From: Bdellovibrionales bacterium
GTDB lineage: Bacteria; Myxococcota; XYA12-FULL-58-9; SYDY01
Reading direction: 5' to 3'
NCBI GenBank assembly: GCA_005801425.1
Contig: SYDY01000115.1
Span: 15,674-79,673, forward strand
Length of the DNA: 64,000 nucleotides
The translations under genes and the position numbers were made by a program. Below are positions 4,843 through 19,626 of the stretch, piece by piece. Position 1 is the stretch's first letter, and each line of letters opens with the position of its first letter. The notes beneath the pieces were generated by a model. It made no database searches. It was not told the DNA's origin and worked only from the letters and a program-made list of their open reading frames with translations.

Positions 4843-7446
4843 TCAGTGCAAGGATTCTTGGACGGAATCAGCCGATGAGGCAACACCAAAATGCAGCGCA
4901 TCATCTTGCATGGAAACTTCAAGCGTATCCCCCGCCACAAATTTACCGGCAAGCAAGAGAGACGCCAATGGATTTTGTACCTCACGCTGAAGCACACGAC
5001 GCAAAGGGCGCGCACCAAAAACAGGGTCATAACCCACACGCGCGAGATAGCGCTTTGCGTCGTCATCCACACGCAAACCAAGATCACGGACTTCAAGCAT
5101 CTTCGTAATATTCTCAAGCTGCAGATCCAGGATCTTGGTGATGTCCTGCTCACGCAATGCGCCAAAAATAACCGTCTCATCGATACGGTTCAAAAACTCC
5201 GGTCTGAAATGCTTGCGCAATGCTTCTTCTGCTTGGTCACGCATGCGCTGATCATCTTTGCCCGCATAATGCTGAATGACATCGGATCCAATGTTCGATG
5301 TCATGATTAAAATGGTATTGCGGAAATCGACCGTACGGCCCTGCCCATCGGTAAGCCGTCCATCGTCGAGCACCTGCAACAGGACATTAAAAACGTCAGA
5401 ATGTGCCTTTTCAACTTCATCAAGCAGCACCACGGAATAAGGCCTGCGTCGCACAGCTTCCGTGAGTTGGCCACCCTCGTCGTACCCCACATAACCAGGG
5501 GGCGCACCAATCAGACGCGAGACGGAATGCTTCTCCATGTCTTCGCTCATGTCGATGCGGATCATGGCCTGCTCGTTATCAAACAAAAAGTCCGCAAGTG
5601 CGCGAGCCGTTTCTGTTTTGCCCACGCCCGTAGGCCCCATAAACAAAAATGTCCCCGCAGGCCTTTTGGGATCCGCGAGTCCTGCACGACTGCGACGAAT
5701 GGCGTCGGAGACTGCGCGAAGCGCCTCTTCTTGCCCAATGACACGTTGGCGCAAGTTGTCTTCCATGTGCAGTAATTTTTCAACTTCACTTTCCAGCATT
5801 TTTGAGACGGGAATACCGGTCCAACGTGAAACCACGGTGGCAATTTCTTCTTCGGTCACCTCTTCGTTCAACATGCGATCCGGAGACGCTTTTGCAACTT
5901 TAAGCGCTTCTTTCAGTTCATTTTCAAGCGTTGGTATTTTTCCAAATTTAAGCTCAGCCGCAAGCTCAAGTTTGCCTTGCCGTTCGGCTTCTGCCTGCTG
6001 ATGCCGCAATTGATCCAACTGCTCTTTGATGTTCCGAGTCTTTTTGAGAGACGCCACTTCTTCCTGCCATTTGGCCTTGAGTGCGCCCTCCTGCTCTTTA
6101 AGCTCTGCAAGCTCTTGATTCACGGTCCCCAAACGATTTTTGCTGGCATCCGTAGATTCGCGAAGCAATGCCTGCTTTTCCACCTCAAGCTGCACAATTT
6201 TGCGTGAGTACTGATCAACCTCTGTAGGAACACTGTCGATTTGCAGACGCAAAAAGCTTGCTGCTTCATCAATCAGATCGATGGCTTTGTCTGGGAGAAA
6301 TCGGTCGGTAATGTAACGGTCAGAAAATTTTGCCGCCGCAACAATGGCCGCGTCTTGGATCCTTACACCGTGATGGATCTCATAACGGTCTTTTAATCCA
6401 CGCAATACTGCAATGGTATCTTCAACACTTGGAGGATTGACGATGACCGGTGCAAAACGACGCTCAAGGGCCGGATCTTTTTCAACATACTTGCGATATT
6501 CATCCAGTGTCGTCGCACCCACACAATGCAATTCACCACGCGCAAGAGCCGGCTTGAGCATGTTCGATGCATCCATGGCACCTTCACCTGCCCCAGCACC
6601 CACCAATGTATGCAACTCGTCGATAAAGAGAATCACCTCGCCGTTGGATTCTGAGACTTCTTTCAAAACAGCTTTAAGACGATCCTCAAATTCACCACGA
6701 TATTTCGCACCCGCAATCATCGCACCCAAATCAAGCGCGATCAGTTTTTTATTACGCATGCTCGATGGCACATCGCCATCCACAATACGTTTTGCAAGCC
6801 CCTCAACAATCGCGGTTTTGCCTACGCCTGGCTCACCAATAAGCACCGGATTGTTTTTGGTACGCCGCGACAAGACCTGCAGCACACGACGGATCTCTTC
6901 ATCGCGGCCAATCACCGGATCGGTTTTTCCCTTGCGGGCTGCATCGATAAGATCGCGACCGTATTTAAGCAAAGCCTGATAACGATTTTCGGGATCTTTG
7001 TCGCTCACACGATGTGAACCACGTACATCTTTCAGCGCATGCAACAATGATGCCTCTTTAAGCCCCAACGCGCGCAGATCAGAACCCGCGTCGCCCTTAT
7101 CGGCTGATGCGGCCATAAGAACATGTTCGGTTGAGACATAGTCATCGCGCATGCTGTCTGCACGGATCTGGGCATCGGTAAGAATGCGGCGCAACTCTTC
7201 GGTGTAAAAAGGCTCACCCCCCGATACCTTGGGCGTGCTCTCAAGCCTTTGCGTTAGCTTGGCCTTAAGCTGCGCCGGAGCAACACCCACTTTCGCCACC
7301 AAAGGCGCAACGATACCGCCCTCCTGCTGGAGCATAGCGAGCAATAGATGGGATGCGCCTATCCCTTGATGGCCCTCTGAAGCAGCCATTTGATGGGCGT
7401 CGTTAAGTGCTTCTTGGGTTTTATTGGTGAGCTTGTCTAAACGCAT
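4843..7446 (-). CDS. clpB: ClpB protein disaggregase (Hsp100 AAA+ chaperone)
   Basis: At 867 aa this has the full ClpB layout: an N-terminal Clp repeat domain ([14 protein letters not shown]), a first AAA+ module with Walker A GEPGVGKT, a long coiled-coil M domain (about residues 400-530, rich in Glu, Lys and Gln), and a second AAA+ module with GPTGVGKT. The M domain and the absence of a ClpP-binding loop separate it from ClpA and ClpC. ClpB works with DnaK to extract proteins from aggregates in the cytoplasm. The start is supported by a GGAGG box about 5 nt upstream. The 56-aa gene at 7510-7680 lies 63 bp upstream on the same strand. I see no clear sigma32 promoter or CIRCE element. Confidence 0.97.
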
Positions 7447-7509
7447 ACGGTCCTCCGCGTAGCATTAAGCTAGGGGCGGAAACGTTGGCGTCAATGTGGA
7501 GAATTAGGT

Positions 7510-7680
7510 TTAGTTGCGGTTGCTGCTTTGAGCCACATCCGTTTTGGTTGGCTCAGTTTCAAGATCGATGAGTTTATCTTTCCATTCTTCAAGCTGCTTG
7601 CGGGTAATCAAGCCTTGTCGAATAAATCGCTCTTGAAGACGCGTATCAAACAAAATTTCCTGAGGAATGTTTTCGGTCAT
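7510..7680 (-). CDS. Small conserved-type hypothetical protein, 56 aa
   Basis: I found this ORF by reading the minus strand between clpB and the phoH-like gene. It starts MTENIPQEILFDTRLQERFI and ends at TAA, and an AGAGGA box about 10 nt upstream of the ATG supports real translation. The product is soluble, charged and probably helical, with a FDTRLQERFIRQGLITRKQ core. I recall small myxobacterial proteins with a similar DTRL-ERFIRRGLIT pattern, but this is memory and no function is known to me. It lies 63 bp upstream of clpB and about 113 bp downstream of the PhoH-like gene, so it may belong to either transcript. Confidence 0.7.
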   Translation of the reverse strand: MTENIPQEILFDTRLQERFIRQGLITRKQLEEWKDKLIDLETEPTKTDVAQSSNRN

Positions 7681-7793
7681 AATTTTTATGTCCTCTGGAG
7701 GCTATCCATCGAAAAATTGGAAACGGCCACGCAGTATGCCGAAAAAAACAAAGCTAGGCAAGATTCGCCCAAAGGAGCATGTGCGCTAATAGC

Positions 7794-9107
7794 CTACAGC
7801 ATATTGGCAGCGAGTTCTGCCAGTTCGCTGCGCTCGCCCTTCAGTAAAGTAATATGACCCGCGATCCGTTCACCCGCAAAACGATTCACAACATGGCAAA
7901 GACCATTGTTGGTGGAATCCACATAGGGGTTATCGATCTGATAAGGATCTCCGGATAGGATCACTTTGGTATTTTCACCCGCGCGGGTGATGATCGTTTT
8001 AACCTCATGAGGCGTTAGATTTTGTGCCTCATCAATGATCATAATCTGATGGGGCAAACTTCGCCCACGGATGTACATCAATGGTTCAATTTGAATAATC
8101 CCAAGATCCAGCAACTCTTTGTAGCTTCGTCCCGTACGACGTTCGTCGGTTTTGGAAAATCCCATCAAAAATTCGACGTTGTCGAAGATAGGTTGCATCC
8201 ACGGATTTAATTTTTCTTCCATACTTCCTGGCAAGTAACCAATATCTTTGCCTAAGGGCAAAATCGGTCGTGACACCAAAAGCCGCTGATAAACGCCTTC
8301 TTCGGTCACTTTTTGCAAACCCGCGGCCAATGCAAGCAACGTTTTGCCTGTGCCTGCTTTGCCCACCAAAGTCACAACTTTAATATTATCGTTGAGCAAC
8401 AGATCGAGCGCAAAAGCCTGTTCTTTATTGCGAGGCCGGATCCCCCAAATACCGCGTTTGGCATCAATGAGAGGCTCCACGGACTGTGTTTCGATATTAA
8501 ATTTTCCCAGCGCCGTATGCGATGGATTCATTGCATCCCGTAAAATAATAAACTGATTGGGGTGATAATAAGGATCATCCAGCTGATACGAACCCTGGGA
8601 ATAAAACGTATCTACGGCACTTCCGCTGACTTCTACTTCAGCAACCCCCGAATACAGCTCACTGATATCGGTGCGTTCAGAATCAAAATCTTCAACCTGC
8701 AAGCCCAGTGCATGACCACGAATACGAAGGTTAATGTCTTTGGTCACGAAAATAGTCGGACCATCGGTATGGTGCTCTGAACAATCGAGGGCTGTGGCCA
8801 AAATACGATTATCGACTGAATTCCCCGAGGCAAGTTCAACGGGAAGCTCACGACGGGTCACGGCCACCTTAAGCAGCCCAGTGCCGTTGATCGTTACACC
8901 ATCGTTGAGATGCCCTTCTGTGCGTAATTCATCAAGCGTTCTTCCAATCTGACGTGCATTACGACCTAATTCGGAAAGATCTTTTTTGAAATTATCAATT
9001 TCTTCGATGACGTAAATAGGAATGACGACAATATTATCTTCAAAGGCAAACAACGAACGGGCGTCGTAAAGAAGCACGTTGGTATCAAGCACAAACAACT
9101 TTTGCAT
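7794..9107 (-). CDS. PIN-PhoH fusion ATPase (YlaK/PhoH2-like)
   Basis: The protein is about 437 aa. The N-terminus is a PIN ribonuclease-like domain beginning KLFVLDTNVLLYDA, with acidic residues spread over the first 140 residues. The C-terminal half is a PhoH P-loop NTPase with Walker A GKAGTGKTLLA and Walker B IMIIDEAQNL. PIN-PhoH proteins are RNA helicase/nuclease candidates, linked to toxin-antitoxin loci in some bacteria. No antitoxin-like gene is adjacent here. The frame opens at a GTG at 9122, but I prefer the ATG at 9107: AAGGCGAGG lies just before it as a ribosome site, and the PIN strand then starts at residue 4. Confidence 0.9.
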   Translation of the reverse strand: MQKLFVLDTNVLLYDARSLFAFEDNIVVIPIYVIEEIDNFKKDLSELGRNARQIGRTLDELRTEGHLNDGVTINGTGLLKVAVTRRELPVELASGNSVDNRILATALDCSEHHTDGPTIFVTKDINLRIRGHALGLQVEDFDSERTDISELYSGVAEVEVSGSAVDTFYSQGSYQLDDPYYHPNQFIILRDAMNPSHTALGKFNIETQSVEPLIDAKRGIWGIRPRNKEQAFALDLLLNDNIKVVTLVGKAGTGKTLLALAAGLQKVTEEGVYQRLLVSRPILPLGKDIGYLPGSMEEKLNPWMQPIFDNVEFLMGFSKTDERRTGRSYKELLDLGIIQIEPLMYIRGRSLPHQIMIIDEAQNLTPHEVKTIITRAGENTKVILSGDPYQIDNPYVDSTNNGLCHVVNRFAGERIAGHITLLKGERSELAELAANML

Positions 9108-9122
9108 CAGCCTCGCCTTCAC

Positions 9123-9408
9123 AAAGAGGATAAAAACATACCCAAGCGTTGGCTGCGCTTAGGTGGAGTCGTCAAGGGTTTAATCCTTTCTTGTAGAAAT
9201 TTTGTCGGTTTAGATAAAGACTTTGAGCGTTCGAAATCTGGGATCGCCGCATTGATCTGCAACCCTAACAAAAAGCAGCTTAAAGAAAAAATAACCGGAA
9301 CATAAAATTCTTATGGCGCTAATTTTGCGAGGAAAATTGCATTCAGGTCACAAAAGGGTTGCAAAGACCAACCACAAACAGGTAGCTAGTGACTTCTTTT
9401 GGTGGTGT
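9123..9408. other. Gap between the PIN-PhoH gene and tRNA-Ala, no gene seen
   Basis: This AT-leaning stretch must hold the outward promoters for the minus-strand PIN-PhoH gene and the plus-strand tRNA. A weak candidate for the tRNA is TTGCAA at 9359-9364 with TAGCTA at 9383-9388, 18 nt apart. No convincing small ORF is visible. Confidence 0.4.
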
Positions 9409-9484
9409 GGGGCTGTAGCTCAACTGGGAGAGCGCCTGGATGGCATTCAGGAGGTCGTCGGTTCGATCCCGATCAGCTCCACCA
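9409..9484 (+). tRNA. tRNA-Ala (anticodon GGC)
   Basis: The 76-nt sequence folds into a cloverleaf. The acceptor stem GGGGCTG pairs with CAGCTCC with one G-T wobble. The D arm is GCTC/GAGC. The anticodon stem CCTGG/TCAGG carries the loop ATGGCAT with anticodon GGC, which reads GCC (Ala). The T arm has GTTCGATC-type loop bases. The CCA end is encoded (9482-9484). Confidence 0.95.
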
Positions 9485-9499
9485 TTATTTTTCTATCTC

Positions 9500-10552
9500 C
9501 TATTTCAACAACAATTTTCGAATATCTGAGTTCTGCATCAGAACATGAGAAACACGTACCGTGCCTGCGTTGTTCAGGTGAAGACGATCCGCAAATTCCG
9601 TGGCCGGGAAATGATCAGAACTCAAATCAACCCACAACACATTCTGCGAACGTGCCATCGCTTCAACCTTCATGCGAATATGTGTTAAATCGCGCAGGAA
9701 CTGCACTTGATTCATCCCTTGCCCGACATACCATTCAATGTTGACAGGCAACCACACCACAGCGGCCTTTTGAGGCCGGCGACCCAGGGCATGAATCACA
9801 TCTTCGGATCCAAGCATACTCGGACTCTCATTGCTTGTATTCACATCGCACTGCTGGAATAAACGACACATCATCCAAAGTCGCTTCTGATCCCATTGTG
9901 TCCCTGCGGAGAGCACCGCTTTATGAGGATCACATCCTCCCAATGCCGGAGACATCGCAACTCCCGTCGTATACTGCTCAGCAGTACGCCCCATCGCAGC
10001 CCGTATTTTTTGCTGCATCAAGATCACAGGCCATAGCATGTTGTACCACTTCAAATGTGAGATAAGCAGCGTACTCGTTTTGGGTGCCAACGTAGGAAGC
10101 TGTGATTTAATTGCCAAGGCGGCGTTACGATCTCCAATAAGATCATAAATCCACATCCACTCCATACGACTTTGGGCTTCAAGAAAATAGACAGGATTCA
10201 AAAGCCAAATCATTGGAATATCGCTTTTCAGTGCATTCACTATTTTAGGAACGAGAAGCGCATAAGAAAACGGTCCCATGCCTGATCGTGCGAGCAAATG
10301 GGCAGGTCGTAGGCTTTGATCACTTATCGAATTGATCGCAGATGGCACATTGCATGAATCGCAGGATTCCGAGCTTCCCAAGAAAACAGCAGCGTTCTGT
10401 TCGTGAGCCAAAGCAAGCGCGGTATCAATATCTCCATAATAAGATAAAACGGGCTTTCGTTTTCCAAGCTCCACGGATGGCCAGAAAATGACTGTCATCA
10501 CAACGCCGACACAAGAAAGCGCCAGCACCCACGTCGGGTTAAAACGTCGCAT
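9500..10552 (-). CDS. DltD-like SGNH-family acyl-transfer protein, partner of the MBOAT gene
   Basis: With the ATG at 10552 the product is 350 aa. It has one N-terminal membrane helix (about residues 8-24) and a periplasmic domain. The motif FLGSSES (57-63) resembles the DltD/SGNH nucleophile Ser, and DRLH (322-325) near the C-terminus supplies the Asp-x-x-His pair. DltD-type proteins take an acyl group that the MBOAT has passed across the membrane and attach it to a cell-envelope polymer. The frame runs upstream to 10621, but that would cover most of the preceding microprotein; the 10552 ATG leaves a 14-bp overlap and puts Met next to Arg-Arg before the helix. AlgJ/AlgX-like partners are the main alternative. 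The acceptor polymer is unknown. Confidence 0.72.
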   Translation of the reverse strand: MRRFNPTWVLALSCVGVVMTVIFWPSVELGKRKPVLSYYGDIDTALALAHEQNAAVFLGSSESCDSCNVPSAINSISDQSLRPAHLLARSGMGPFSYALLVPKIVNALKSDIPMIWLLNPVYFLEAQSRMEWMWIYDLIGDRNAALAIKSQLPTLAPKTSTLLISHLKWYNMLWPVILMQQKIRAAMGRTAEQYTTGVAMSPALGGCDPHKAVLSAGTQWDQKRLWMMCRLFQQCDVNTSNESPSMLGSEDVIHALGRRPQKAAVVWLPVNIEWYVGQGMNQVQFLRDLTHIRMKVEAMARSQNVLWVDLSSDHFPATEFADRLHLNNAGTVRVSHVLMQNSDIRKLLLK

Positions 10553-10655
10553 ACACAAACTCTGCCCGTGATGACCCTGTGGCAAGGAACAAATAAGTGC
10601 ACCACAAAGACGTGACCACAATCATCCAGCCCATAGATATCAAAAAAGGCTTCAT
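10539..10655 (-). CDS. DltX-like single-pass microprotein ending in FVYATF, 38 aa
   Basis: The ATG at 10655 overlaps the MBOAT stop as ATGA, and the TAA at 10539 lies inside the start of the DltD-like gene, so it is coupled on both sides. The product has one hydrophobic helix (about residues 4-26, SMGWMIVVTSLWCTYLFLA) and a short tail that ends exactly in FVYATF. Known from Gram-positive dlt operons: DltX is a small one-helix protein with a C-terminal F-x-Y-x-x-F motif, whose Tyr is thought to carry the D-alanyl group between DltB and DltD. Match of position, size, topology and final motif is the evidence. A longer in-frame opening to 10763 exists but lies inside the MBOAT gene. The role as acyl relay is inference. 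Confidence 0.75.
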   Translation of the reverse strand: MKPFLISMGWMIVVTSLWCTYLFLATGSSRAEFVYATF

Positions 10656-11731
10656 GCGAACATCCGAAGGATGGAATTCCAGGCTTGCGGCAACGGATAT
10701 GAGAAAAGTATCCACCCCAACGTAACGGACAAAAATGTCATCACGATAGAAAGAATATTCCACACCGACCCTTGAAAAAAGAATTTACCCAAAAAGAGAC
10801 GTTTGCAAATGCTATGAACAACAAGAAGCATGCCGTGATAAAAACCCCATGCTAAAAAATTCCAAGCAAGGCCATGCCATACACCACAAATGGACATGCT
10901 CACGATCAACAGCACGATCTTATATGCAAAACCTCGGCGACTCCCGCCCAATGGAATATATAAAAAATCACGGATCCAAAACGAGAGTGACATATGCCAA
11001 CGACGCCAAAATACTGAGATGTTTGGGGACATATAGGGATTGTCAAAATTTTCAGGCAACGTGAAGCCACACAAGCAACCCAGTCCAATCACAAGATCGG
11101 TATAACCTGCGAAATCACAATACAATTTGATACTGTTGGTGACCGCTGAACGCCAAAGAAACAATGAAGGTGCCACTTGCAAATCGTAGACACTTAAAAC
11201 CCATGGCGCAACGCCATATCCAATCAACAAAAAGACAAGGCCTGATATCAAACGACGCATCGCTTGAGCTGCATCAGGCACATGCCACGCAAAATGCTCT
11301 GGTCGTGTGATGGGCCCCATCACCACGATGGGAAAAAATAACATTTGTAACATACGCTGCTGCAAGGACATCAGAGGAATTTTTTGAACTTCGACAGCAA
11401 GCGCCACTGCACGAAAACCAAAATAAGATAAACTGGGCAAAAATGGCGCAACAAGCATCATGTCGTTGCGTAAGGCAGTATACGCAATAACAAGCAATGA
11501 GGAAGCCACTACAAGGGGCACTTGGCACCATGGAACATACGACAACAACGCAATGAGCGTGCCTAAACCTATGTAAATAAAACCCGTTTTAGGACCACAA
11601 AAAGCAAAAAGAATATACAGCGAAGCTGCTAAAGCGGGTATACCACGCCATGGCGGAACAAGCCGTCCTTCTACCAACCCCACGGTCAAAAACAGAAGCC
11701 ACACGACAGGGTTGGTAAGAAGTTCTAACAT
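10652..11731 (-). CDS. MBOAT-family membrane O-acyltransferase (DltB/AlgI-like)
   Basis: This 359-aa polytopic protein carries MBOAT signatures: FDNPYMSPNISVFWRRWHMS, then FWIRDFLYIPLGGSR, then ICGVWHGLAWNF with the catalytic-type His in WHG. DltB and AlgI enzymes move an acyl group from a cytoplasmic donor across the inner membrane for transfer to an extracytoplasmic polymer. It is first in a three-gene unit with the 38-aa FVYATF protein and a DltD-like SGNH protein, an arrangement closer to dltB-X-D than to alginate acetylation. No DltA ligase or DltC carrier is present nearby, so the donor is unknown. No obvious ribosome site precedes the ATG at 11731; the start is chosen as the first Met before the first helix. 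Confidence 0.85.
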   Translation of the reverse strand: MLELLTNPVVWLLFLTVGLVEGRLVPPWRGIPALAASLYILFAFCGPKTGFIYIGLGTLIALLSYVPWCQVPLVVASSLLVIAYTALRNDMMLVAPFLPSLSYFGFRAVALAVEVQKIPLMSLQQRMLQMLFFPIVVMGPITRPEHFAWHVPDAAQAMRRLISGLVFLLIGYGVAPWVLSVYDLQVAPSLFLWRSAVTNSIKLYCDFAGYTDLVIGLGCLCGFTLPENFDNPYMSPNISVFWRRWHMSLSFWIRDFLYIPLGGSRRGFAYKIVLLIVSMSICGVWHGLAWNFLAWGFYHGMLLVVHSICKRLFLGKFFFQGSVWNILSIVMTFLSVTLGWILFSYPLPQAWNSILRMFA

Positions 11732-11841
11732 CGTCGTCGTATGGCGGGCATACCATCGGCATCACCCCAATAGCAATTTACACACTTCGGTATTTCTAGT
11801 TTCCTCCATAACCGCTATCGTGTGTAGGGGAGAGGGAAGAC

Positions 11842-12645
11842 ATGATTAAAACAATATTTACAGTGAGCCTTGCCATCATTTTAGGATGCGGAGATCGAGG
11901 TGCATCCAACGTCACCACACGCTTAGGTTGGACTTTGGACTATGCGGATTGGACCCAAGCGGGTATCACCCAGCCTGACGTCCGAGGATGCAGCAATCAA
12001 CCCAGTGATGGCGGCAATGGGACACCCTATCCAGCAGTCACGCAAGTCCATGTTCAACTTATGGATGCAAGCCAACAAACAGCGCCTATCGATGCCATGT
12101 TTGCATGCGACGAAGGGATCGGTGGGCAACGCGTGCCACTGACCAATCTTGAGGCCGAAACCTATGTGTTAAAGGTAACGGCATTGGCAAGTGACAACTC
12201 GGCACTGTACGCCTACCACGACAATGCATTTCATCCAAACACAGCTTCTGTTGAACAGGATATCACGCTGCGCGCGGCTGTGGGTGAATTACGATTTTTT
12301 CCGCGGTTTGGATCACAAGGGCTGACGTGTCCCAATGATGTTGAAAATATCAGCTATAAAATAATATCGCATTCCGATCTCATTGCTCAAGGCACGATGG
12401 CTGCATGCCGCGATGGCTTCGCCAATGAAATCAATATTCGTAATATTCCCGTAGAACCCAAACCTGGTGCCAATGGAAGCTATATCGCAGACCAATTTGA
12501 TTTACTTATTGAAGCGAAGAATTCGGCTGGAAATGTGTTGTATTGCAATCAATCACAGCGCACCGTGAAACCTGGAAACAAAAACCTCACCAACGATGTC
12601 GTACTGCAAGCAGGCAGTGCCTGTGGTGCCAGTGCTCCACTTTGA
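11842..12645 (+). CDS. Hypothetical lipoprotein, 267 aa
   Basis: The N-terminus MIKTIFTVSLAIILGC is a lipoprotein signal with Cys16 as the predicted lipidation site, followed by a small polar linker. A GGGAGAGGGAAG box precedes the ATG. The rest looks beta-rich, with six or more cysteines spread through the chain (for example GCSNQ, MFACDEG, LTCPN, LYCNQSQ), possibly disulfide-bonded in the periplasm or at the surface. I do not recognise a named family. It is divergent from the MBOAT operon and convergent with the regulator gene, so it appears to be a single-gene transcript. Confidence 0.8.
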   Translation: MIKTIFTVSLAIILGCGDRGASNVTTRLGWTLDYADWTQAGITQPDVRGCSNQPSDGGNGTPYPAVTQVHVQLMDASQQTAPIDAMFACDEGIGGQRVPLTNLEAETYVLKVTALASDNSALYAYHDNAFHPNTASVEQDITLRAAVGELRFFPRFGSQGLTCPNDVENISYKIISHSDLIAQGTMAACRDGFANEINIRNIPVEPKPGANGSYIADQFDLLIEAKNSAGNVLYCNQSQRTVKPGNKNLTNDVVLQAGSACGASAPL

Positions 12646-12646
12646 A

Positions 12647-12666
12647 GGGCGGCTCAAGAACCGCCC
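12647..12666. terminator. Hairpin between convergent genes
   Basis: GGGCGG (12647-12652) pairs with CCGCCC (12661-12666) around an 8-nt loop. It lies just after the lipoprotein stop and ends one base before the regulator stop, so it could serve both strands. There is no strong T-tract. Confidence 0.5.
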
Positions 12667-14088
12667 CTATCGGATTTCATATTCTTTGATTTTGTATAAA
12701 AGCGCACGATGAGAAATTTCGAGTAGACGGGCCGCTTGGGTACGATTACCACTTGTTTTTGCAAGACTTCGTCGAATTAAATCTTGTTCGATCATTTGTG
12801 TGGCTTTTTTGATCGAGAGATCATCACCAAATAGAGACACATGCGGCATGCTGGCCATGCCGGTCACACGATCGGGAAGATCTTCCAAATCGATCACGTT
12901 GTGATCTGCCAAAACCAAAGCACGTTCCATAGCATTTTCAAGCTCTCGAATATTGCCCGGCCAGTGATAATCGTAAAGAACTTGCATCGCTTGTTTTGAT
13001 ACCGTCACCGAGGGCGATCCCATACGTTCACCGTATTCCCGTAAGAAATGGTGAACCAATTCAGGAATATCATCACGACGTTGGCGCAAGGGTGGCACTT
13101 TGATCGTTACCACATTGAGACGATAGTAAAGATCTTCCCGAAATGTTCCTGCTTGTACCATGGCAGGAACATCGCGACTTGTGGCCGCAACCACCCGTAC
13201 ATCCACTTGACGCCCCTGGCTTTCCCCCACACGGCGGATCTCGCCTTCTTGCAAAAATCGCAAAAGCTTCACCTGCATGGACACTGGCAAATCACCGATC
13301 TCATCCAAAAACAGCGTTCCGCCATGGGCCTCTTCTATAAGTCCTCCTCGGTCGCGTTGCGCATCGGTAAATGCACCTTTGGCATGCCCAAAAAGTTCAC
13401 TTTCGATCAAATGTTCTGGGATAGCCCCGCAATTGATGGGAACCCATGACCCTTGTGACCGTGTGGATTCATCATGCAATGCCCGGGCGATCAACTCTTT
13501 TCCAGTACCCGATTCACCCAAAATCAACACCGTGGACTTGTAGGGTGCAACTTTTTGAATGGTACGAAACACACGGCGCATTTTCAAACTTTGGCCAATA
13601 ATGCCGCCGGGGATCTCAATGCCAGCCATCCCTTCTTTAAGACGCGCATTTTCGGCCTTAAGCCTGGCTTCTTCTTCTTCAAGTCGAAGTCTTTCGCAAG
13701 CCGTTGTAACCTTGAGAAGTACTTCATCTTCACGCACCGGCTTACAGACATAATCACCAGCACCCAGTTTCATCGCCTCAATGGCGGTATCAATATCATC
13801 AAAAGGACTCATCATAATCACATGGACTGGAAGCTTGCGATCACGAATAGCACGCAACAGATCAAGCCCATCCATATTCGGCATGGAAACACCACTGAGC
13901 ACAATGTCACCACCACCATCCGAAAGATGCTCAAGCGCCTCCACGCCATCGCCAGCTTCGGATACCGTAAATGCAAACTTTTCAAGTAAATTCCGTAAAA
14001 GATGACGAACGGGCACATCGTCATCCACAAGAAGGACGCGACGCCCACGACGCTCACGAAGATCTGTTGTATTATTCTCTGATGACAT
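12667..14088 (-). CDS. NtrC-family sigma54 regulator with an atypical receiver
   Basis: From the ATG at 14088 the product is 473 aa. Order: receiver (about 17-130), AAA+ sigma54-activation domain (about 160-390), Fis-type helix-turn-helix at the C-terminus (TSGNRTQAARLLEISHRALL). Walker A is GESGTGKE. Two departures are visible. The receiver keeps the acidic pair (VDDD, 22-24), the Ser/Thr switch (MMSP) and the Lys (CKPV), but the phospho-acceptor Asp is Gly66 (IVLSGVSMP). The sigma54-contact loop reads GAFTDA instead of GAFTGA. The frame extends to 14262, but that part covers the divergent lipoprotein start; ATGs at 14106 and 14121 are other options. It may be controlled without phosphorylation, for example by protein binding; no sensor kinase is adjacent. 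Confidence 0.88.
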   Translation of the reverse strand: MSSENNTTDLRERRGRRVLLVDDDVPVRHLLRNLLEKFAFTVSEAGDGVEALEHLSDGGGDIVLSGVSMPNMDGLDLLRAIRDRKLPVHVIMMSPFDDIDTAIEAMKLGAGDYVCKPVREDEVLLKVTTACERLRLEEEEARLKAENARLKEGMAGIEIPGGIIGQSLKMRRVFRTIQKVAPYKSTVLILGESGTGKELIARALHDESTRSQGSWVPINCGAIPEHLIESELFGHAKGAFTDAQRDRGGLIEEAHGGTLFLDEIGDLPVSMQVKLLRFLQEGEIRRVGESQGRQVDVRVVAATSRDVPAMVQAGTFREDLYYRLNVVTIKVPPLRQRRDDIPELVHHFLREYGERMGSPSVTVSKQAMQVLYDYHWPGNIRELENAMERALVLADHNVIDLEDLPDRVTGMASMPHVSLFGDDLSIKKATQMIEQDLIRRSLAKTSGNRTQAARLLEISHRALLYKIKEYEIR

Positions 14089-14221: not shown

Positions 14222-15766
14222 ATGATAACCACCCGTTTATTAAAATCTCGCACTGCGATCATTGTCGCGTATTGTGTATTAGCCGCCTGTAGTGATCGTT
14301 CGCTACGACCCTTAAACCCACAATTGCTTGTTTGCCAGTCGGCCAGCGATGAGGTGTGTGAATCTCCACTAACGTACGCGTCTTATGCTGCTGGCATCAC
14401 AACAACACTGGAAATTGTGCTACGTAATACCGGCGAAATTCCATTACGCATCACGCATCTGGAAGCGGTTTCTGGGAATACCATCGGCATAGGTGTGTTT
14501 CCTTCCGTGCTTGCCCCCAATGCCCAAGCATCAGTGCTTCTCACCGTAACACCACGCTTAGGAGCCAACCGATCCACGCTTCAAATACAAAGCAATGATA
14601 CACAACGACCCATTTATCGATTTGACGTGGTCTACGAGGGACATGGCCCCGAGCTTATGTTTTGCAGTGAGAACCACAGAGACACATGCAATATCAATCT
14701 GACGATTCGTCCTGAACCCGTCAAGCTTACGCGTGCATCCGAAATTGTCATTTACGCATTAAATGTATCGCCCGAATCGGTTAAACTCAACGAAAGTGTT
14801 GCAGATCTCAGTGAAAGCGTTGCCGATGAAATCGAAATTTTAACATCCCTGAATGCCGGGACCATCAAAGCCGGTGAATTTTTACCCATCGTCATAGGCT
14901 ACCGTCCTCAAGATCAGATCAATGACACAATTCATATTTCTCTGGTACCCGAGCGTCCCTTCACTGTCCCTGCAAGCGCAATGGTCACATTGACCACCCC
15001 GAGCAATCTTCCACCTATTGCTGAAATTTCAGCCCTGGAATCGGCACATCAGAATGGGAGTATTGAAATTGAGCACGTCCTATGGCTTGACGGTCGTGCT
15101 TCCCATGATCCTGAAGGCGACCCATTGCAATTCACGTGGACACTTTCTGAGAAGCCACTTCAAAGTGCATCGCTGCTATCTGCCAGCAATACGACGATGG
15201 TATCGCTTATCCCTGATGTGTTAGGAGATTATCGTGTCGACTTGATTGTTACCGACTCATTGAACAATACCGCAAGCACATCATTTCAAATCCACGTAAC
15301 ACCCCATCATGCTTTGAGCATTAAGTTAGAATGGAACACTTCTACCGATCTCGATTTACATCTTATTCGCAATCATGGATCTCTTTTTGGTGCGGATGAC
15401 TGCTACTTTCAGAATCCATCACCCGACTGGGGAATACCGTACGAGATTTTCGATGACCCCCTCTTGCTTCGAGACGAAGAGACCGGGGGAAGTTTTGAAA
15501 AGATCATCATTAAGCAGCCCAGTGATGGCGAGTACAACGTTATTGTCCATGCCTTTAACGTCCATGAAACGCCCACCGCTGCAGTGGTCCATATTTTCGC
15601 CAACGATGAAACGCAAACATTGGCAGTTCAAACTCGCGAGATACAACGAGACTGTCAAGGATGGCTCGTGGGGACGGTTTCTTGGCCAAGCGCGATATTC
15701 ACACCTGCAAGCACACGACCTTCTTTGATTTGTTTGCCACCTGCCAATCATGGAGAAGCCCTATGA
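14222..15766 (+). CDS. Lipoprotein with PKD-like domain and C-terminal myxobacterial-type beta domain
   Basis: From the ATG at 14222 (GGGGGGACGCC before it) the product is 514 aa. The signal ends in VLAAC with Cys23 as lipidation site. Next come CFXC/ASPM-like beta regions (residues about 40-260, with NTGEIPLRITHLEAV), then a PKD-like domain near 270-370 (WLDGRASHDPEGDPLQFTWT), then a C-terminal domain with STDLDLHLIRNHGSLFG and DDCYFQNPSPDWG. I recall that last pattern from myxobacterial surface proteins. The frame opens earlier at 14108 but the signal peptide fixes the start. The stop overlaps the next gene as ATGA, so the two are translationally coupled. Likely a surface or outer-membrane protein; no enzyme motif is seen. 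Confidence 0.85.
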   Translation: MITTRLLKSRTAIIVAYCVLAACSDRSLRPLNPQLLVCQSASDEVCESPLTYASYAAGITTTLEIVLRNTGEIPLRITHLEAVSGNTIGIGVFPSVLAPNAQASVLLTVTPRLGANRSTLQIQSNDTQRPIYRFDVVYEGHGPELMFCSENHRDTCNINLTIRPEPVKLTRASEIVIYALNVSPESVKLNESVADLSESVADEIEILTSLNAGTIKAGEFLPIVIGYRPQDQINDTIHISLVPERPFTVPASAMVTLTTPSNLPPIAEISALESAHQNGSIEIEHVLWLDGRASHDPEGDPLQFTWTLSEKPLQSASLLSASNTTMVSLIPDVLGDYRVDLIVTDSLNNTASTSFQIHVTPHHALSIKLEWNTSTDLDLHLIRNHGSLFGADDCYFQNPSPDWGIPYEIFDDPLLLRDEETGGSFEKIIIKQPSDGEYNVIVHAFNVHETPTAAVVHIFANDETQTLAVQTREIQRDCQGWLVGTVSWPSAIFTPASTRPSLICLPPANHGEAL

Positions 15767-18700
15767 TTCGGATCACACGACTTTTTTTCCTCTTGCTTTT
15801 AGGTACTGCAGCCTGCAGCGAAACATCAACCCGTGACACGACTGTGATACCTCCACCCGACAACATCGATGAGGGATCTTCGCCTCATGCATGCACAACA
15901 ACATCCGATTGCCCGTTTGGGCATCGCTGTCGAAATAGCATATGCGTTCCTGATGCGACGACATTTCAAAGCCCTGGATGCGCAAGCAACAACGATTGCA
16001 CCGCACCGCTGGTATGTGCCATCGCAATAGGAGAATGCATCAATCCAAGCGAAACACCCAACCCATCTTTATCCTCTGATACATCCTGCACGCCGGGCGA
16101 AACACGCACCTGCGGAAGTAAAATTGGTGCATGCAATTACGGAGAAATGCATTGTGATGATGGGGGACAATGGACGACATGCTTAGGCGGTATTGGACCC
16201 ATACCAGAAATGTGCAATGGCATCGACGATGATTGCGACGGAACCATATTACCCTCAGAACTTGATGCGGACGGAGATGGTTTTCGTAACTGCAATGGCG
16301 ATTGCGATGACGCCAATACTGCACGATTTCCTGGCGCAATCGACCTCTGCGATGGCCAAGACAATAATTGCGACGGCTATATCGATGAACAAGGAAACCG
16401 TTTGTGCAATGATGACCTTTATTGCAACGGTGAAGAAACATGTTCTGCGGGAACGTGTCTCTCCGGTATTTCTCCCAACTGCAACGACCTCGACAGCGCA
16501 TGTACCATAGGGTCATGCGATGAAGACAACGACAGTTGCCTTTCTACAAATAGACCTGATGCCACAAATTGCAGTGATGGATTATTTTGTACGCAGGGCG
16601 ACACATGCAATGCAGGTGTTTGCCAAGGAATAACACGCGATTGTTCATCATCGTCCGATGCCTGCAACACTGGGACTTGTGATGAAACCCAAGATCAATG
16701 TGTAGCGTCTCCGAAACCCAACGAAACGTCATGCGATGATGGCATGTTTTGTACCGATATTGATCGTTGCCAATCGGGTGTCTGCACAGGCCATGAACGA
16801 TCTTGCGACGCTCTCAACGATAGCTGCAATCGGGGTACCTGCGACGAAAACGCGAATTCCTGTGTTGCTACCCCCGTCAGTGATGGGACGGGTTGTAATG
16901 ATGCGCTGTTTTGTACTTTGGAAGATCACTGTGTTGCGGGGCTTTGTTTAGGAAATACACCGAGAGATTGTTCCTCTGTCTCAGATCAATGCAACAGCGG
17001 TGGATGCGATGAAACGGCTGATCGATGCGTTGCGCATCCTGTAGCCAACACGACACCATGCAACGATAATTTGTTTTGTACCGTAGGCGAACAGTGTCAA
17101 TCTGGTTCGTGTACAGCGGGTTTACCGCGAGATTGCAGTGCTTCGGGGGGGTCATGCAGAACAGGAACATGCGACGAATCGGCTGACCAGTGCACAGGGT
17201 CACCACAACCTGATGGCACATCATGCGATGATACCCGTTTCTGCACGGTACAAGATCATTGCCAGGCTGGGTCATGCATAGGATCTTCGCGTGATTGTTC
17301 CGCCTCTGGAAATGACTGCAACGATGGGACATGTTCAGACACCCTGCAAAGCTGTATTGCAACGGCAAAACTTGATGGAACACTTTGTGATGACGGACGT
17401 TTTTGTACTGTCACCGACATGTGCAGTGCCGGATCATGTGCGGGACTTGCCCGTGACTGCTCGGCAGCATCTGACACATGCAATACGGGTGTGTGCAATG
17501 AAACCGGTTCGCGTTGCGAGCCCTCGTCTTCCCATGAAGGCCAAAGTTGCAATGACGGCCGCAATTGCACAATCACCGACCATTGTTCTTCCGGCGCATG
17601 TCGTGGTGAAACCAACCCCTGCAACAGCATGGATACCTCATGTCTCGATGGCTTTTGTGATGTAGGTACCGACCAATGTACAGCACGTCCACTTAGCAAT
17701 GGGATATCCTGCGACGATGGGAAATTCTGCACCATCGGAGATGCCTGCAACAATGGGACATGCGGCGGATCACCCAATCCATGCAGCAACACCCCCGGTG
17801 GAGGCGCATGCACAACGCCCATTTGCGATACTTCCGCAGATCATTGTACCAATCAAACACTGCCCAACGGAACATCATGTACCGATAGTCAGTTTTGCAC
17901 GGTCGGTGATCATTGCATCAACGGCTCCTGCAACGGGTCACCACGAGATTGCTCAATATTGACAAGTGCATGCACAACAGGGTCGTGTTCTAATGTTTCG
18001 CAGGCGTGTATTTCATCGCCATTATCATCAACAACAACGTGCTCGGATAACAACCTATGCACGCAAAATGACCATTGCCTTGATGGAGGATGCCATTCGG
18101 GTACGCCCGTTGATTGTTCGCATTTAACCGATCGTTGCCATGTTGGACAATGTGACCCGACCGGCGCATGTCTGCGCGTTAATTCCGGTGCATGCGATTG
18201 CGATGACCAGATCAATGCCGATTTTGATGGGTACAATCAGTGCGATGATTGCGACGACACCAACGGTGCTATTTTCCCAGGCGCCACAGAACGTTGCAAC
18301 AGCAAAGATGATAACTGCAATGGTCAGATCGACGAAGGTTTCGATGTTGACCATGATGGGTATTTTCAGTGCTCATTGGATGATGGTCTCGTGGACTGCA
18401 ATGACAACAACGCATCCGTTCATCCCGGTGCTTTGGAAAACTGCAATACGCCTGATGATGACAACTGCAATGGCGTGGTCAACGAGGGGTGTATCCATTG
18501 CGATCCTATTGATCACGATCATGATGGGTTCAGCGAATGCACGGGTGATTGCAGCGACAACGACAATGCCGTCTATCCAGGTGCTTATGAGCTATGCGAC
18601 GGCAAAGACAACGACTGCAACAAAAACACAATCAAAAATTGCGATGTTTCTGAACGTTGTGATTGGCCAACCGAAGAAGTTGATATCTGCAAGGACCAAT

Positions 18701-19626
18701 TGATGTGCGCCTGCATTCTCGAAAATGGTGTTTGCAAAAAACGAGTTTGCACAGTGACCTGTAATACAAGTCGCACGGGTGCGCTGGAGGATGGGTGCGA
18801 TTATGATGAGTCCTGCTATTACGATGTGTATGGAACATCCAATTTGCACGCATGTGCCCAAATCAACACGCTTGGGTTGTTACCAAGCGGATCAACATGC
18901 ACGGGAGACTCTGATTGCAGAAGTGGGCAATGTCGATTCGTGTCTGGACGAACAAGTTCATCCTATGTGTGCACTGATTATTGTACCGAAGATCGATACT
19001 GCGATGTGGGGACCCGTTGTGTGATCCTTGATACAGGGAGCAACATAGATGGACGTTGTCTACCCACATGGGCGTTGCAAGTCGGTACGGGAGTCACGGG
19101 ACAACGATGCACAAGTCATCCCGCTTGTGCCCACGGATTTTGCTTTGATGCCAGCAGCGACTATTGCACCGAAGCGTGCTGCGATGACGATGAGTGCCCC
19201 TCTGGAATGCATTGTGCACTTAATACAGTCACACGACGACATATTCTCGCGCCTGCTGGAACGCCCACATGCACCAGCGATCGTGAATGCCGTGACCTCT
19301 ATGCGGATGATGGTATGAGTTGCGTTCTCAACAGCGATGGCATTTATCGCTGCGGGCGTTCGATGCTCGAAAGCGCCCCCATGTGCCTATTCGACGTGAG
19401 CAGCCAAGCTTCAAGGCCTGCTGGCGCAGCCTGTGCGCAAAATCGTGATTGCCAGAGCAATTTCTGTTCTGGAAATCTCGGTGTTTGCGTCTCGCCTTGC
19501 TGCACCGATTATTCATGTCCTGAAGGACTTGCATGTGAAATGCAACTCATCAATGCAGGACAAGGGTTGGTTGATGCCAGGGTGTGTGTGAGTCAATCGA
19601 CCGATGAAGTCATTCAAAGATTGTAA
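15763..19626 (+). CDS. Giant cysteine-rich repeat lipoprotein with MopE-type metal-binding motifs
   Basis: From the ATG at 15763 the product is 1287 aa; the frame opens at 15661 but that part overlaps the upstream gene, and the signal FLLLLGTAAC (Cys18) fixes the start. After a short linker come two CxxDxDC-type modules, then MopE-like motifs (CNGIDDDCDG, CDGQDNNCDG with FPGA loops). Next are 11 tandem repeats of about 54 residues with the core CDDGxFCTxxDxCxxGxCxG followed by RDCSxxSDxCNxGxCDE (DNA about 16405-18175). Three more MopE-like motifs follow (about 18230-18620), and a C-terminal cysteine-rich region. Family knowledge: such motifs occur in surface proteins of methanotrophs and myxobacteria and may bind calcium or copper. 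Role here is inferred: adhesion or metal binding at the cell surface. Confidence 0.88.
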   Translation: MIRITRLFFLLLLGTAACSETSTRDTTVIPPPDNIDEGSSPHACTTTSDCPFGHRCRNSICVPDATTFQSPGCASNNDCTAPLVCAIAIGECINPSETPNPSLSSDTSCTPGETRTCGSKIGACNYGEMHCDDGGQWTTCLGGIGPIPEMCNGIDDDCDGTILPSELDADGDGFRNCNGDCDDANTARFPGAIDLCDGQDNNCDGYIDEQGNRLCNDDLYCNGEETCSAGTCLSGISPNCNDLDSACTIGSCDEDNDSCLSTNRPDATNCSDGLFCTQGDTCNAGVCQGITRDCSSSSDACNTGTCDETQDQCVASPKPNETSCDDGMFCTDIDRCQSGVCTGHERSCDALNDSCNRGTCDENANSCVATPVSDGTGCNDALFCTLEDHCVAGLCLGNTPRDCSSVSDQCNSGGCDETADRCVAHPVANTTPCNDNLFCTVGEQCQSGSCTAGLPRDCSASGGSCRTGTCDESADQCTGSPQPDGTSCDDTRFCTVQDHCQAGSCIGSSRDCSASGNDCNDGTCSDTLQSCIATAKLDGTLCDDGRFCTVTDMCSAGSCAGLARDCSAASDTCNTGVCNETGSRCEPSSSHEGQSCNDGRNCTITDHCSSGACRGETNPCNSMDTSCLDGFCDVGTDQCTARPLSNGISCDDGKFCTIGDACNNGTCGGSPNPCSNTPGGGACTTPICDTSADHCTNQTLPNGTSCTDSQFCTVGDHCINGSCNGSPRDCSILTSACTTGSCSNVSQACISSPLSSTTTCSDNNLCTQNDHCLDGGCHSGTPVDCSHLTDRCHVGQCDPTGACLRVNSGACDCDDQINADFDGYNQCDDCDDTNGAIFPGATERCNSKDDNCNGQIDEGFDVDHDGYFQCSLDDGLVDCNDNNASVHPGALENCNTPDDDNCNGVVNEGCIHCDPIDHDHDGFSECTGDCSDNDNAVYPGAYELCDGKDNDCNKNTIKNCDVSERCDWPTEEVDICKDQLMCACILENGVCKKRVCTVTCNTSRTGALEDGCDYDESCYYDVYGTSNLHACAQINTLGLLPSGSTCTGDSDCRSGQCRFVSGRTSSSYVCTDYCTEDRYCDVGTRCVILDTGSNIDGRCLPTWALQVGTGVTGQRCTSHPACAHGFCFDASSDYCTEACCDDDECPSGMHCALNTVTRRHILAPAGTPTCTSDRECRDLYADDGMSCVLNSDGIYRCGRSMLESAPMCLFDVSSQASRPAGAACAQNRDCQSNFCSGNLGVCVSPCCTDYSCPEGLACEMQLINAGQGLVDARVCVSQSTDEVIQRL
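16405..18175 (+). repeat. Eleven tandem cysteine-rich coding repeats, period about 162 bp
   Basis: Each unit encodes about 54 residues with roughly nine cysteines at fixed spacing. Core variants include CSDGLFCTQGDTC, CDDGMFCTDIDRC, CNDALFCTLEDHC, CDDTRFCTVQDHC and CTDSQFCTVGDHC. Protein spacing is kept while DNA has diverged, so the array is old rather than freshly amplified. Confidence 0.8.

Follow-up and report, generated by a model that had tools for sequence, protein, structure and literature searches.

A three-gene operon in the 64,000-nt stretch of DNA analysed here (the window) likely specifies an acyl-CoA-fed relay, probably for acetyl groups, in which an MBOAT protein, a separate microprotein, and a DltD-like transferase act one after the other to modify an envelope polymer. 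The three products, P0002, P0001, and P0003, are predicted to form one membrane complex, which would carry an acyl residue from the cytoplasm to the polymer, most likely an acetyl residue donated by acetyl-CoA. P0002 would draw on a cytoplasmic thioester as acyl source and, with the aid of His286, load Tyr35 in the C-terminal hexapeptide of P0001, the acyl-Tyr end of P0001 would swing to Ser61 of P0003, and P0003 would pass the acyl group to a polymer hydroxyl near the periplasmic face of the membrane. The chemistry of this relay would follow that of DltX and PatA, for which acyl-Tyr intermediates are established (PMC12148441 and the work cited there).

Features of the operon and its products

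The genes are located on the minus strand and overlap head to tail, the MBOAT gene (11731-10652) and the microprotein gene (10655-10539) by 4 nt (ATGA), and the latter and the gene of the DltD-like protein (10552-9500) by 14 nt. An MBOAT with WHG, a 38-aa protein ending in FVYATF, and a DltD-like protein with GSSES and DxxH had been described in the original prediction, and all coordinates hold. The unit is a stand-alone operon, followed downstream by tRNA-Ala, PhoH, and ClpB and preceded upstream by a divergent possible lipoprotein gene and then a sigma-54 regulator. Its GC content is 46.4% compared to 49.0% for the window, a difference that does not settle horizontal transfer. The phylum is probably Myxococcota, judging from how large the related genomes are and how they are composed, and from MopE-type repeats.

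P0002 (359 aa) passed the Pfam MBOAT model with 53.4 bits (3.3e-14; cut-off 27). It has the MBOAT fold and the WHG motif, whose His286 (10874..10876, minus strand), the predicted catalytic residue, is invariant among 40 aligned MBOATs. The AF2 model (pLDDT 82.7, pTM 0.82) has DltB as its best structural match (8jem; Foldseek 7.7e-12), and the alignment extends over 345 residues with a Z score of 29.6 (model 3-356, chain 15-413). Since P0002 matches DltB along its length, it stops, with the sequence SILRMFA, where DltB stops. The two extra helices and the Tyr motif found in fused MBOATs are missing. With the DltB equivalog model TIGR04091, P0002 yielded 146.7 bits, below the cut-off of 375. This match was considered as a sign of Dlt membership and rejected, because fused MBOATs score alike (151-180 bits) and a real DltB reaches 551. 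In trees calculated with fused and unfused MBOATs, P0002 groups together with DltB and the remaining unfused proteins or in their vicinity, outside the fused family of the phylum, on long branches compatible with one or several origins of the split state.

P0003 (350 aa) consists of one N-terminal helix and a periplasmic domain with GSSES, including the predicted acyl-enzyme residue Ser61 (10370..10372, minus strand), and DRLH, containing the predicted catalytic dyad Asp322 and His325 (9578..9589, minus strand). The match to Pfam DltD (PF04914; 8e-5) of 22.6 bits is just below the cut-off of 22.7, and the 22.5 bits obtained with the NCBIfam model TIGR04092 do not reach its cut-off of 150. Nevertheless, P0003 is the sole protein matching the Pfam DltD model among 193 genomes of the phylum, and the best 12 PDB matches of its AF2 model (pLDDT 73.5) in Foldseek are all DltD. 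In a second structural comparison (VIA), DltD chains aligned over 263-268 residues with Z scores of 15.3-15.7, by Z tied with smaller GDSL enzymes, which align over 170-195 residues. The DltD fold with an N-terminal helix and Ser-Asp-His is present in P0003. A profile built from P0003 and 13 SGNH partners retrieved DltD first from the PDB, and Gly59, Ser61, Asp322, and His325 are invariant across these 14 aligned proteins. GSSE and PVNxxW are common to P0003 and a real DltD. Relatives of P0003 were not detected by tblastn in 195 genomes of the phylum, plasmids, and viral contigs.

The microprotein P0001, MKPFLISMGWMIVVTSLWCTYLFLATGSSRAEFVYATF, is composed of one hydrophobic helix (residues 4-22; 10590..10646), delineated by hydropathy, and the C-terminal hexapeptide FVYATF (10542..10559), in which the codon for the predicted acyl-accepting Tyr35 is found at 10553-10551, all on the minus strand. 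The architecture of DltX, a single helix and then a C-terminal F-x-Y-x-x-F, is thus present, and the same motif terminates fused MBOATs. Only one of the 935 window ORFs of at least 25 aa has such an ending, P0001 itself, and the motif is for that reason not regarded as a chance occurrence. Codon usage favours its own frame weakly (2.8 bits over 38 codons), so that the case for the gene rests on comparison with other genomes. No match of P0001 to Pfam DltX (PF12459) was obtained at E 10, compared to 1.8e-20 for a real DltX, and in none of the 193 genomes of the phylum did a protein exceed the cut-off of this model. The sole match to PDB sequences was meaningless. As anticipated, the microprotein escapes standard annotation, being labelled neither by Pfam DltX nor by NCBIfam models. 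Homologues of the 38-aa ORF, expected from the original prediction, were recovered in part: the helix and the motif recur at other unfused loci, whereas P0001 itself is without close homologue, conservation being confined to these two elements.

The acyl donor

Dlt requires DltA and DltC. Neither is encoded near the operon, as had been stated for this Gram-negative-type genome, and a recognisable DltA/DltC pair was not found in the genome as a whole, which comprises 121 contigs rated 100% complete with some stretches masked. One such stretch, a 72-kb masked run of N, produced an open frame of 24,653 aa (C118:14048-88009), which was discarded as a gene. A degenerate or split Dlt system, in which the three proteins still move D-alanine or another amino acid and a DltA/DltC-like pair is encoded elsewhere, appears unlikely. 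Such a system would be in line with the truly DltD-like P0003 and with an A-domain of the same genome that adjoins a carrier on contig C36 and represents the best DltA match. However, its 256 bits are far below the cut-off of 560, and this only DltA-like pair of the genome is part of a pyrrole-type cluster (locus 2188-10577 of C36:1-18000) together with a flavin/Trp-halogenase-type enzyme, a PigA/RedW-type prolyl-carrier dehydrogenase, and a ketosynthase-III-like protein, as in pyrrole biosynthesis. As a candidate for the missing donor system, it was rejected because of this (halo)pyrrole-type context. A further point for a split system comes from a genome of the same order (G006), in which an amino-acid adenylation enzyme (TIGR01733, 332 bits), a carrier, an unfused MBOAT, a microprotein ending in FVYRGF, an SGNH protein, and a formyltransferase-like protein are encoded in one operon (L064, 1655-6927, minus strand). 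Perhaps this Gram-negative operon specifies a relay for aminoacyl or formylaminoacyl groups.

Against an amino acid as substrate also stands P0002 itself. DltB contacts DltC via helix HC (PMC11035591). At this position, P0002 has the sequence YIPLGGSRRG and no DltB-type stretch. The LGGSR loop (residues 261-265; 10937..10951, minus strand) is common to acetyl-CoA-type MBOATs such as PatA and is not present in DltB. Among MBOATs that could be typed by this loop, nine others being not typable, a carrier gene was detected nearby for 0 of 87 with an LGG loop versus 5 of 9 without it, the searches spanning 1-9 kb around most MBOATs and mostly flanks of 1-3 kb. These counts are based on the stricter typing, since a looser regular expression mistyped two loci (L055 and L117). 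The loop of a Neisseria PatA, LGGSK, is alike, and this protein contains FIYANF; PatA of C. jejuni uses acetyl-CoA (PMC12148441). Because LGG loops never adjoined carriers and because of the resemblance to these PatA proteins, the donor of P0002 is most likely an acyl-CoA, and the simplest candidate is acetyl-CoA; the LGGSR loop combined with the absence of a carrier points to the same donor. In general, it may be possible to predict from the type of loop which acyl donor a bacterial MBOAT uses.

A second MBOAT of the same genome (C55:16000-31000, locus 5832-11417) has 488 aa, a fused FIYFQF, and no LGG loop. It is located in a polysaccharide cluster near a carrier and a 576-aa HAD-type protein (FkbH-like by eye) and is probably a carrier-fed fused MBOAT. 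Carrier genes also adjoin fused MBOATs without LGG loop at three other loci (L128, L129, and L138).

Free and fused tyrosine motifs at MBOAT loci

In total, the comparison comprised 113 MBOAT loci, taken from the same phylum and from other sources; a tenth MBOAT without clear motif (L053) was not counted, nor were some fragments truncated at contig ends. Closer inspection was given to loci containing short reading frames, a choice that selects for unfused MBOATs and not for microproteins. The MBOATs of 104 loci end in their own Tyr hexapeptide, typically FIYFQF, and none of these has a free hexapeptide ORF nearby. By contrast, all nine MBOATs without C-terminal Tyr motif, P0002 included, are accompanied by a free F-x-Y-x-x-F microprotein (Fisher 1.7e-13, the unfused loci representing about five independent lineages). 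The DltX-like Tyr relay from MBOAT to DltD-like transferase, as originally proposed, is supported by this distribution, and the microproteins expected beside other MBOATs were indeed found next to the unfused ones.

In one family of these loci, f13, the unfused MBOAT is paired with a microprotein whose C terminus reads FIY[IV]DF, and the pair is kept in five genomes belonging to three genera (G071, G112, G155, G156, and G176). For three of the five microproteins, pN/pS values of 0.08/0.22, 0.07/0.22, and 0.02/0.13 were determined; as judged from these values, the family is under purifying selection. In an alignment of five microproteins, all of them one-helix proteins, both Phe residues and the Tyr of the motif are invariant, and so the predicted conservation of the Tyr was confirmed. 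In Candidatus Eremiobacterota (DAIDGS010000036.1, L067), the gene order is X-D-B. The complementarity of fused and free motifs and the purifying selection acting on microproteins give the relay reading good support. Another locus (L065; 8655-10153, minus strand, and 10527-13505, plus strand) encodes an unfused MBOAT whose loop is of the DltB type, together with a microprotein that terminates in FVYVNF, in divergent orientation to an AMP-binding ligase; a short carrier ORF was not found in the 18 kb searched.

These comparisons also bear on the nature of P0001. P0001 might be suspected to be a chance ORF, or what a true or a sequencing frameshift has left, out of frame, of the tail of a fused MBOAT, since its start overlaps the MBOAT stop, its codon bias is weakly coding, and fused tails are the rule in the phylum. 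Yet fused tails extend 72-130 residues past the point where P0002 ends, too long for a single frameshift to yield 38 aa, and P0002 stops at the DltB end point. Other genomes, too, encode separate microproteins, which are subject to purifying selection, and the rarity of the motif among the window ORFs speaks against chance. The frameshift remnant was rejected on the grounds of length and recurrence, and it is very improbable that P0001 is no gene. Equally improbable is a purely structural or regulatory subunit holding the MBOAT and the DltD-like protein together, with the Tyr unacylated and P0003 loaded directly: although a regulatory role was raised for the DltX and DltD helices (PMC11035591), the Tyr and both Phe residues are invariant, the free motif occurs only where the fused one is missing, and acyl-Tyr was demonstrated for PatA (PMC12148441).

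Relation to known acylation systems

The predicted acyl-CoA-fed relay shares with DltB-DltX-DltD of Gram-positive Dlt systems an unfused MBOAT with the same end point, a separate one-helix F-x-Y-x-x-F microprotein, and a DltD-like transferase. It differs in lacking DltA and DltC, in the acyl-CoA-type loop of the MBOAT, in the gene order B-X-D, in the failure of P0001 to match Pfam DltX, and in the scores of P0002 and P0003 below the DltB and DltD cut-offs; moreover, teichoic acid is not expected in the host. While the relay architecture claimed for a Dlt-like acylation unit was retained, the Dlt identity was not: the DltB-model score of about 147 bits and the loop type make it improbable that the operon represents a Dlt (D-alanine) unit. 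Dlt operons are known in a few Gram-negatives (PMC5541007), and a Gram-negative Dlt-like unit is therefore not new in itself. The soft-rot enterobacteria Dickeya and Pectobacterium, cited there, resemble the window in having Dlt-type genes in a Gram-negative background, thought to act on lipopolysaccharide, but their operons are reported as Gram-positive-type dlt, unlike the window operon without DltA and DltC.

The Tyr relay, too, is already known from Gram-negatives, namely from PatA/PatB (PMC12148441). With PatA-PatB of peptidoglycan O-acetylation and with AlgI-type pairs of fused MBOAT and SGNH proteins, the operon has in common the predicted acyl-CoA donor, the LGG loop, the predicted Tyr hexapeptide relay, the SGNH partner, and the Gram-negative envelope. 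In those systems, however, the motif is carried by two extra MBOAT helices and not by a separate 38-aa protein, and P0003 is closer to DltD than to PatB or AlgX. A similar arrangement is seen in family f13 and in the Eremiobacterota locus, where an MBOAT with LGG loop and without motif is combined with a free F-x-Y-x-x-F microprotein, a carrier or A-domain was not found nearby, and, in the three loci checked (G071, G112, and L067), an SGNH protein adjoins. Pfam does not identify the SGNH partners there as DltD, the microproteins are longer (59-65 aa), and the order of L067 is different.

MBOAT/SGNH pathways other than Dlt are described as possessing neither a carrier nor a DltX-like microprotein (PMC12148441). 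New with respect to this description is a shuttle that, judging from the gene arrangements, is a separate protein outside the Dlt pathway. The window, the five f13 genomes, and L067 have a microprotein without carrier, and a carrier accompanies a fused MBOAT on contig C55 of the same genome and in L128, L129, and L138; these loci suggest that shuttle fusion and carrier use are independent traits. Tentatively, acyl-CoA-fed free microproteins might define a third type of machinery for acylation across the membrane, distinct from both Dlt and PatAB and distributed across Gram-negative phyla (Myxococcota-like and Eremiobacterota), which would have escaped notice owing to the small size of its key gene (38-65 codons); independence of the two traits would then imply that all four combinations of fusion and carrier dependence exist. 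The loci described here provide a naturally tripartite system whose shuttle, acyltransferase, and transferase are separately mutable, a loop signature predicting the donor, and a class of short ORFs unlabelled by Pfam and NCBIfam models.

Two other regions of the window were noted. A putative polysaccharide gene cluster, read by eye, is located about 28 kb from the operon, and nothing ties it to the three genes. At 15661-19626, a 1321-aa Cys-rich secreted protein is encoded, in which long Cys-rich repeats occur along with four Cu-binding motifs of the MopE type.
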